Of a stretch of DNA of 64,000 nt, positions 3,301-59,385 are shown piece by piece. Position 1 is the first letter of the stretch. Each line of letters begins with the position of its first letter. The notes below the pieces were generated by a model, which worked only from the letters and a program-made list of their open reading frames with translations, did not search any database and was not told the DNA's origin. The translations under genes and the position numbers were made by a program. The stretch is from positions 1-64,000 of the forward strand of contig JAAVFQ010000030.1 in assembly GCA_014800685.1 (NCBI GenBank), in the 5' to 3' direction. The DNA comes from Bacteroidales bacterium. GTDB taxonomy: Bacteria; Bacteroidota; Bacteroidia; Bacteroidales; Muribaculaceae.

Positions 3301-3479
3301 AGTAAGTGATAAAATCTATCTGCTTAAAATGACGTATTTTTGGAGATTATTTATCGGCAGAGTGAATGAAGATATAGGCATATCTGTCTGAGTGACAATA
3401 CAAAATCAGTCCAAAGGGAGGAGTCTTATAGTAGAAGAGTTTTAATCTTACCTATATCATTATTTTTTTAGAACTTACT
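3301..3479 (-). mobile_element. TA-flanked miniature inverted-repeat element, full copy A
   Basis: A non-coding element of 179 bp. Its left end is AGTAAGTGATAAAATC and its right end is TTTTTTAGAACTTACT, and both are flanked by TA (3299-3300 and 3480-3481). Read on the minus strand it aligns along its whole length with the copies at 24902-25082 and 54373-54554, including the inner hairpin GATAT-AGGC-ATATC at 3371-3384 and the TTTTTGGAGATTATTT block. It lies between the divergent promoters of fumarase and the amidase. The TA duplication suggests mobilisation by an IS630/Tc1-mariner type transposase, which is inference because none is encoded here. Confidence 0.8.
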
Positions 3480-24901: not shown

Positions 24902-25082
24902 AGTAAGTTCTAAAAATTAAAGGATAGCTGTGAGATGAATACTCTTGATTATTAAGCTTGTCGTACGGGGCGAATTTCACGTTGTCATTGAGTCAGATAT
25001 AATGATATCATCTTTCCATTCGCCATGAAATTATCTCCAAAATAACTTCCTTTTATATCTACATTAATTTTTCTCACTCACT
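24902..25082 (+). mobile_element. TA-flanked miniature inverted-repeat element, full copy B, between hemerythrin and LuxR genes
   Basis: 181 bp, left end AGTAAGTTCTAAAAATTAA, right end TTAATTTTTCTCACTCACT, flanked by TA at 24900-24901 and 25083-25084. The inner hairpin GATAT-AATG-ATATC lies at 24996-25009. It aligns along its length with copies A and D. On the minus strand the TA plus the first base of the element form the TAA stop of the hemerythrin gene, and the other TA gives the A of the LuxR start codon. There is no open reading frame inside. Confidence 0.85.
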
Positions 25083-52144: not shown

Positions 52145-52190
52145 TTTCTGCAACCATTAGTGAAGGATATGCGTTAATATTAAGAACGTA

Positions 52191-52255
52191 AGTTTAAAAA
52201 ATTAAAAGATAAATGAGAGGATAAGCATCCTGTGCTATAATTTTTCTCACTTACT
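52191..52255 (+). mobile_element. Deletion derivative (copy C) of the TA-flanked inverted-repeat element
   Basis: 65 bp flanked by TA at 52189-52190 and 52256-52257. The first 50 bases match the left part of copy D (AAAAATTAAAAGATAAATGAG and onward to ATCCTGTGCTA). The last 17 bases, TAATTTTTCTCACTTACT, match its right end. About 115 central bases are missing. It lies between the nitroreductase and EamA genes. Confidence 0.75.
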
Positions 52256-54357: not shown

Positions 54358-54372
54358 AATATCTAATATATA

Positions 54373-54554
54373 AGTAAGTTCGAAAAATTAAACGATATAT
54401 GTGAGATGAAAACTCCTGTACAATAAAACTTGCCCTTTTGGGCTAATTTCACGTTGGCACTCAGTCAGATATGCTTATATCTTCCTTTGTTTCGCCGCGA
54501 AATTATCTCCAAAATTACTTCGTTTTATATGTACATTAATTTTTCTCACTTACT
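54373..54554 (+). mobile_element. TA-flanked miniature inverted-repeat element, full copy D
   Basis: 182 bp flanked by TA at 54371-54372 and 54555-54556. Left end AGTAAGTTCGAAAAATTAA, right end TTAATTTTTCTCACTTACT: these form inverted repeats of about 19 bases with a few mismatches. Inside are the hairpins GCCC-TTTT-GGGC (54432-54443) and GATAT-GCTT-ATATC (54468-54481). No reading frame. Homologous throughout to copies A and B. Confidence 0.85.
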
Positions 54555-54572
54555 TACTCCACTGAATTTTTA

Positions 54573-59324: not shown

Positions 59325-59385
59325 GAAGTGAGAAAAATTAATGTACACATATATAACGAAGTAAGTGGGGAGATTTTTCCGGAAC
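59325..59385 (-). mobile_element. Decayed fragment (copy E) of the inverted-repeat element
   Basis: AAGTGAGAAAAATTAATGTA, then AACGAAGTAA and a GGGGAGATTTTT block, correspond in order to the first 60 or so bases of the reverse complement of copy D (AAGTGAGAAAAATTAATGTA, AACGAAGTAA, TTTTGGAGATAATTT). The other end is not recognisable. Confidence 0.6.

Follow-up and report, generated by a model that had tools for sequence, protein, structure and literature searches.

Elements in the window

The window analysed here is the whole stretch of DNA from position 1 to 64,000 of contig JAAVFQ010000030.1 (C30:1-64000). It belongs to a Muribaculaceae genome that we call G000 (2,128,568 bases in 33 contigs, 93% complete). 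Five traces of a miniature inverted-repeat element (MITE) lie in the window, comprising three full copies, a deletion form and a fragment, each where the original prediction had placed it. The cores listed here were scored with a covariance model, R1, that is described below.

54373..54554, plus strand: MITE copy D, full, 182 bp, ends AGTAAGTTCGAAAAATTAA / TTAATTTTTCTCACTTACT
54371..54372, no strand: target duplication of copy D, left TA
54555..54556, no strand: target duplication of copy D, right TA
54423..54524, minus strand: structured core of copy D (R1, 97.0 bits, E 3e-21; this core is one of the 25 rows from which R1 was built)
54461..54488, minus strand: apex of the copy D core (AAAGGA, hairpin AGATAT-AAGC-ATATCT, GACTGA)
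24902..25082, plus strand: full MITE copy, TA on both sides
24951..25052, minus strand: core of the 24902 copy (R1, 55.3 bits, E 2e-10)
3301..3479, minus strand: full, diverged MITE copy, TA on both sides
3328..3429, plus strand: core of the 3301 copy (R1, 57.3 bits, E 5e-11)
52187..52255, plus strand: internal deletion form, both ends kept, core absent
59326..59381, minus strand: decayed right-end fragment (profile positions 126-179), within a crude 299-aa ORF call

The core of the 3301 copy is read on the plus strand because that element is inverted. At the apex, copy D has AAAGGA, versus GAAGGA in most of the aligned copies. When a profile of 30 copies was searched with nhmmer against 464 kb of G000, the full copies were recovered with E-values of 2e-29 (3301-3479), 7e-39 (24902-25082) and 7e-62 (54373-54554), the deletion form (from 52188) with 0.0015 and the 59326-59381 fragment with 9e-6. 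The window holds no further nhmmer match at E<=1, save one on the opposite strand of the 54373 copy, which is expected from a palindrome.

TA flanks each of the three full copies at both ends, as had been predicted. For the deletion form, predicted at 52191-52255, the TA on the left is conditional: it requires that one AGTA unit of the end be counted as lost, and a full-length end leaves AA as the flank. The claim that the elements encode nothing stood, with no open frame around the core past the shuffled expectation. Some of 33 elements (a further one, lacking an anchor, was excluded) do have an open frame of 33-54 codons across the core, as a small peptide encoded there would need. Against this, the mean open stretch in the three frames is 25.6, 22.2 and 24.1 codons, compared with 21.8 in shuffled sequences and with highest shuffle means of 28.9, 28.6 and 30.3. 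Since these stretches fall within the shuffled range, we rejected a coding core, and we regard a peptide as very improbable.

Copies across the genome

The family extends well beyond these loci. With up to two mismatches (<=2), the end motif AGTAAGTNNNAAAAATTAA has 125 + 143 = 268 matches in the 2.13-Mb genome, compared with 2 + 1 for a reversed-pattern control. A genome search returned at least 46 matches, at least 40 of them near full length, with 84-100% identity; the 40 are a floor, because only 40 of 167 first-look candidates were scored. At E<=1e-3 there are 32 separate traces in the 464-kb sample (22% of G000), the form at 52188 missing this threshold, and simple proportion gives about 150 traces per genome. 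The high copy number that had been proposed is thus upheld, though at this estimate and not at many hundreds. Two of the 32 traces lie within crude ORF calls.

TA occurs on both sides of 31 of 42 full copies (left, 36/42; right, 35/42), the frequency of TA in the window being 5.6%. Among the 11 copies without TA on both sides, the right flank is TG in four, where another end adjoins head to tail, and the rest include truncated or mutated copies. The analysis of flanks and of 41 copies dropped 13 of 30 newly fetched copies from other species that the end pattern missed, including all ten new copies from genome G007, and the 41-copy test did not include the copy at locus L020. These elements are short (182 bp) and dispersed in many copies, carry no transposase gene, and have terminal inverted repeats and a target duplication, as MITEs do.

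Several arrangements of copies were seen in G000. Five full copies each have a partial or short one behind them in head-to-tail order (C29:15907-16131, C8:67834-68054, C31:21656-21880, C9:23299-23540 and C23:40493-40714). The junction is ACTTACTTGTAAGTTC in four of these and ACTTACTCGTAAGTTC in one, with two bases missing relative to a simple insertion next to an end. Forms reduced to about 56-85 bp have lost the core and kept both ends (C16:42517, C16:27816, C8:67655, C8:159976 and 52187-52255 in the window), so that internal deletions are recurrent. At C8:159582-162683, five traces from both subfamilies cluster around small lipoprotein-like genes (genes judged by eye).

Relatives and insertion sites

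The original prediction proposed searching related Muribaculaceae, and relatives were found there within the genus and beyond it. MITE matches are present in 29 of 111 same-genus genomes (11 of the 46 of good quality), where full-length matches have 66-77% identity. A sample of 397 genomes from the family gave matches in 29, nine of which belong to other genera, some of these nine having short, weak matches. Identity does not track taxonomy: a copy in G026 is 0.89 identical to one in G382, from another genus, and 0.88 to one in G035, compared with 0.74 to G000, from its own genus. This suggests horizontal spread. An exact right-end pattern, searched in 84,980 species genomes with own-genome records possibly excluded, found 64 stretches from 13 assemblies, all of them MAGs, whose titles name Muribaculaceae, Muribaculum, Porphyromonadaceae, Bacteroides, Bacteroidales or just bacterium. 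The bases after TAAGTA vary among species yet largely remain inverted between the two ends of a MITE.

Two nested copies suggest insertion at TA inside older relatives. At L023, the right flank resumes within a subfamily-2 element, at the TA of that element's end, and the left side lacks one AGTA compared with a simple insertion. At L020, the left flank breaks a subfamily-2 element at TA, and the right side has lost sequence. The region that bears an element in G082 has counterparts without it in G021, G063 and G124, all too diverged to give the exact site. G080 and G082 (66-69% complete) have one insertion in common, within 3.2 kb of 98.9% identity; in the five other locus pairs that were compared, only the element is common.

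Phage or plasmid origin was considered and rejected. No viral contig carries the MITE right end, and the window core has no match in phage records. A core pattern gave two matches in the viral search, both inside other sequence without such ends. A copy of the type found in G101 is present on two near-identical viral contigs (L387:12880-13180 and L388:11370-11670), and the plasmid search gave one weak match, to a G101 element.

An IS630-type partner

The TA duplication had been taken to point to a transposase of the IS630/Tc1-mariner type acting in trans, and IS630-type elements with similar terminal repeats were found in genomes of the same genus. They measure 1107-1125 bp, have TAAGTA-like ends, and could be delimited in nine loci. 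The right end of the MITE matches the two ends of the IS630 element at L065 (G101) at 25/30 and 26/30 positions, an inner 24-bp match that arose in 0 of 20000 shuffles, and the left end matches them at 22/30 and 22/30 (2 and 7 of 20000 shuffles). For a subfamily-2 MITE of the same genome, the right end agrees with the L061 IS630 group at 27/30 positions, and for a MITE in G140 the right and left ends agree with IS630 at 28/30 and 21. The IS630 element at L088, also of this genus, matches the MITE ends at only 16-17/30, which we count against the explanation favoured below. These end matches tie the MITE to this IS630 group and do not speak to present-day dependence on it. In G222, an IS630 element is present at two different sites, its ends identical in both copies as far as they were read.

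The partner transposase has a DDE_3 domain in one frame (92 bits, cut-off 28.6) and helix-turn-helix domains in an overlapping first frame. The two frames taken apart score 94.3 and 63.3 bits with an IS630 model whose cut-off of 100 applies to the whole protein. In L065, we read the overlap of orfA and orfB at the slippery heptamer T TTT TTA as a -1 frameshift site. Relatives of this transposase occur in 23 of the 111 same-genus genomes.

No IS630 transposase was found in G000, an absence that is not proven because the genome is 93% complete. Its only PF13358 match is part of a 466-aa frame that looks like a membrane glycosyltransferase and has no such ends near it; this candidate was rejected. 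In the 464-kb sample, four spans with paired ends around a gene were translated and no transposase was recognised by eye. The IS630 transposase is also absent from G007 and G140, which have 91 and 98 first-look MITE candidates; G103 and G123, with 144 and 78, do have it. MITE and IS630 occur together in 8 of the 111 genomes, compared with 6.0 expected from 29 and 23, and two of the eight (G103 and G099) rest on one weak MITE match each. These absences and the near-chance co-occurrence also weigh against the explanation favoured below. We count a partner transposase in the same genome as a frequent companion of IS630-type MITEs and not as a strict requirement.

As far as sequence can decide the matter, these repeats are MITEs with IS630 ends. 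None of the outcomes named beforehand as refuting the original prediction occurred. The flanks, the similar ends and the partner in the genus all agree with the predicted action in trans; the transposase itself was not found in G000, where action in trans would mean an element that was lost, left unassembled or only visiting. The similarity of the ends and the flanks suggest that an IS630-family transposase would recognise the ~30-bp MITE ends in trans. Insertion into TA would then duplicate it, and the element would presumably move in this way.

A conserved hairpin

The original prediction did not include the structured core, which we regard as the main finding. We aligned one copy from each of 22 genomes representing 22 species (A1, 197 columns). 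These are 22 of the 29 matching same-genus genomes; the others (G065, G083, G091, G099, G103, G117 and G119) were excluded for fragmentary, weak or unclear ends, or, for the copy L160 of G119, which had ends, for an irregular arm. RNAalifold folds the element as one hairpin of 61 pairs, 34 of them with changes on both sides. Cells with double changes number 164, compared with 46.7 +- 5.8 in shuffled alignments (0 of 500 reached this, though shuffles do not keep relatedness) and 17-30 in slid versions. With the commonest Watson-Crick pair as reference, Watson-Crick pairing is maintained in 163 double changes and lost in 25; with A1 pruned to 14 sequences, the counts are 106 and 21. In a set of 25 cores, all with IS630-type ends and some with quite different outer arms (A2), double changes occur at 22 of 24 pairs, in 129 cells versus 33.2 +- 5.1 shuffled.

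The core has an apical hairpin, then three tandem G.A modules split by short Watson-Crick stretches (two pairs in the aligned IS630-ended copies), and then a longer stem. The modules are GA/GA in 24, 23 and 21 of the 25 sequences, one of them being CC/GG in G107. On the minus strand the order is 5'-GA-NN-GA-AG-GA-(hairpin)-GA-CU-GA-NN-GA; on the plus strand these conserved bases look unpaired. The element would have two parts, IS630-like ends and outer arms that vary by species and an inner core that is conserved and probably folded.

A palindrome could also arise without function. The elements might be ordinary IS630 MITEs like RUP or ERIC, with a functionless core and a palindrome that is a by-product of MITE origin or of template switching between the arms (quasi-palindrome correction). 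Known bacterial MITEs are long stem-loops, several of them ending in TA, according to the parts of the literature cited here (PMC2229807). Mini-transposons of ISY100 with 30 bp per end move like the whole element (PMC2170065), which fits such an origin; where 30 bp of each end are enough, a conserved inside also needs another reason. Correction from arm to arm would likewise yield paired changes, and among 41 copies in G000 there are 27 double changes where independence predicts 8.5, 11 of the 27 restoring the pair.

Among the 30 closest G000 copies, by contrast, there are only two double changes where 1.3 are expected, and one of the two restores the pair. The failure of most double changes within G000 to restore a pair counts against the favoured explanation. 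Variants found in several G000 copies avoid the stem, with 27 at 66 unpaired versus 15 at 116 paired positions, and single-copy variants avoid it less (34 unpaired and 50 paired). On the cross-species structure the single-copy variants are stem-depleted too (50 at 76, 34 at 106), and the difference is weak in the 41-copy set (Fisher 0.07 and 0.10). We read the pattern within G000 as dead copies drifting while the fold would be maintained in source lineages. Correction between arms would also tend to erase non-Watson-Crick pairs, and the G.A modules are conserved. Arm-to-arm correction as the sole cause is disfavoured, and we think a functionless by-product unlikely.

The same core between other ends

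R1 was built from 25 cores with IS630-type ends only. In 464 kb of G000 it has 17 matches at E<=0.01, of 18 at E<=1. One match (E 5e-4) lies in an element at L048:4506-4696 (C8) with ends GAGAGTGTTTGAATTTAA / GAGTGTGTTTGGATTTAA and TTA on both sides. In 400-kb samples of other genomes, matches at E<=0.01 number 12 of 13 at E<=1 in G101 (same genus), 14 of 20 in G222 (another genus) and 0 of 2 in G044 (another family of the order), where the best E is 0.02 and the motif is present. A DNA search with the window element gave no match in G101.

R1 also matches elements without IS630 ends, which have other, paired ends and a TTA/TAA duplication; there the E-value is 2e-11 in G035, 9e-8 to 0.016 in G101 and 1e-5 to 0.13 in G222. 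In G101, 8 of the 13 matches are in elements that combine GARNNTGTTTAAA-like ends with a 3-bp duplication, and 3 are in IS630-ended ones. In G222, elements of the former kind account for 4 of the 20. Another 12 form six facing pairs on opposite strands, about 200 bp apart, with GAGCTTGTTTAATAATAA on the outside in the printed sequences, the end pairs not being confirmed by script. Several strong G222 matches have no confirmed end pair, and this too counts against the favoured explanation. The facing pairs (L331:14974-15251, L331:17988-18267, L335:8623-8902, L335:18455-18733, L343:1240-1516 and L328:13061-13350) look like two cores opposed inside one compound element. Across 220 loci (2.37 Mb), such ends with equal 3-bp duplications delimit 13 short elements, and 13/13 contain an R1 match (E 9e-8 to 0.13); this is not an unbiased rate, because the end pattern was set after the elements had been seen and many of the loci were fetched for their matches.

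The IS5 family makes a short TNA target duplication. In G222, an 868-bp element with TTA on both sides scores 178.7 bits with an IS5 model (cut-off 110), and its ends, GAGATTGTCTAAA, are common to a neighbouring core-bearing MITE. It differs from the core MITEs in having a transposase and in containing no R1 match. A second TTA-flanked element of this genome (L338:17017-17914, 898 bp, ends GAGGGTGTTTCATAACRA) has a 254-aa frame resembling the same transposase type.

An alignment of 21 cores with mixed end types (A3) retains the fold, with double changes at 22 of 23 pairs and in 125 cells (34.6 +- 4.9 shuffled). Here, the AG/CU beside the hairpin is swapped for GG/CC. Since a model from IS630-ended copies matches IS5-ended MITEs, one structured core appears between the ends of two unrelated transposase families. 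A shared, one-strand-biased fold at the centre of MITEs with both kinds of end is well supported, and the presence of the same core between unrelated ends argues against the by-product account given above. A further R1 match (E 1e-4), at L175:3250-3354, belongs to an element whose ends, AGTTRTCTAAACTTATTT, are of a third kind and which shows no clear duplication.

RNA or single-stranded DNA

The minus strand of A1 folds at -57.3 kcal/mol and the plus strand at -39.1. With each strand judged on its own structure, G-U pairs compare with A.C as 39 to 8 on the minus strand and as 44 to 27 on the plus, where 36 of the 44 fall at two fixed pairs. The binomial p of 5.5e-6 is nominal, as related sequences are not independent. 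In A2 the contrast is weak (28 to 11 on the minus strand, 30 to 28 on the plus), and in the mixed set A3 the counts are 35 to 9 and 16 to 19. The notion of a palindrome kept at the DNA level, with G-T pairs rare, was revised once the minus strand had been folded. Because the G.A and G-U pairs of one strand would be C.T and A.C on the other, this pattern of conservation favours the folding of one single strand, which for copy D is the minus strand.

Such a fold could form in RNA or in single-stranded DNA. RNA transcribed from or through the element might raise its chance of being kept or copied, and this seems the most likely option; as a close alternative, a DNA hairpin could act at replication or transposition. 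G.A and G.T mismatches are among the more stable ones in DNA, and a strand-biased fold that tolerates both would suit a hairpin that is bound by a host replication protein, for example, or formed on the lagging strand, and that aids copying or survival. There is also little wobble in A1, at 39 of 1333 Watson-Crick, G-T or A-C cells on the minus strand and 8 of 1247 on the plus (two fixed pairs excluded). Orientation relative to genes shows no bias (8 same and 9 opposite for 17 traces between co-directional genes), which also fits DNA and counts against the favoured explanation. Against a DNA hairpin stands the double-strand cut-and-paste transposition of IS5 elements. The same mode is described for IS630 in the portion of the literature cited (PMC2170065). 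In the mixed set, moreover, G-U makes up 35 of 453 such cells, and one pair is G-U in 8 of 21 sequences. According to the cited part of one report, G-U is strongly supported in RNA and G-T weakly in DNA (PMC6993869); the weak support in A1 resembles the DNA pattern. We find the DNA hairpin a possible but rather doubtful reading, and since G-U pairs are tolerated on the folded strand, above all in the mixed set, folded RNA is favoured by a small margin.

A known Rfam RNA was rejected, with no matches at the gathering score in the window and in four 20-kb loci and none at E<=1 in eleven MITE loci. Two sub-threshold Rfam matches belong to another repeat, not the MITE. The motif TANNTTTG, which we take to be the Bacteroidetes -7 box, is present on the minus strand of just 10 of the 25 cores, a further point against our preferred explanation.

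We are fairly confident of that explanation overall, namely that these are IS630-type MITEs whose conserved single-strand core, most likely RNA, is shared with IS5-ended MITEs. A broader proposal has perhaps an even chance of being right: one folded module would be the shared centre of a MITE superfamily in this bacterial family, combined with IS630 and IS5 ends and perhaps more. The core would then outlast the ends, as a mobile element of RNA or single-stranded DNA that exchanges one transposase for another.

Comparison with known systems

Bacterial MITEs are usually regarded as deleted insertion sequences whose inside is irrelevant. Here the inner part is strongly conserved, with a fold kept by paired changes across many species and between unrelated ends. 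If this is true, the question becomes why a non-coding hairpin survives changes of transposase. A likely IS630 partner is also now available for this high-copy repeat, whose hosts belong to a major gut bacterial group. A literature search found nothing on this core or on MITEs of the Muribaculaceae.

HEARO and similar RNAs are structured RNAs carried by transposons; the case here differs in that the carrier is a MITE, there are two end types, and Rfam gives no match. ERIC elements are small stem-loop MITEs. The ends of RUP, an element of Streptococcus pneumoniae, are presumably unrelated in sequence to those described here. Like our elements, RUP is short (107 bp), targets TA, has ends similar to IS630, occurs in 108-110 copies, and has a predicted stem-loop; it is thought to be mobilised by IS630-Spn1 (PMC3049150, PMC2229807). 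Our elements are longer (182-196 bp), and the cited descriptions of RUP do not mention a covarying core with G.A modules common to IS5-ended elements. Correia/NEMIS elements are likewise small stem-loop MITEs, with TA at the Correia termini (PMC2229807). They and ERIC have other hosts and other sequences, and the cited account names no core common to several element types. MITEs are described in the same phylum from Porphyromonas gingivalis (PMC4596501, PMC5771137) and Cardinium (PMC9769881), in reports cited in part, and the likeness is drawn without sequence comparison.

ISY100 (IS630/Tc1-mariner) resembles the partner, which has DDE_3, in its TA target and, in the section cited, in ends of ~24-30 bp that suffice (PMC2170065); the partner differs in having two overlapping frames (orfA/orfB). 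REP and REPIN sequences are also palindromic, intergenic and high in copy number. REPs are 20-40 bp with a GTAG or CGTC tag in the part of the report cited (PMC3733652), whereas our elements are 160-196 bp with terminal inverted repeats and TA or TTA/TAA duplications, and the A2 consensus has no such tag.

A separate stretch of about 110 bp with a GC-rich hairpin (GGCTGCGGCCGCC...GTGGCCGCAGTC) lies just 5' of an ATG at L130:1746-1870 (G082) and also in G021, G063, G124 and others. It is about 80-92% identical across several same-genus genomes, in one or more places per genome, and looks like a conserved leader or regulatory element.
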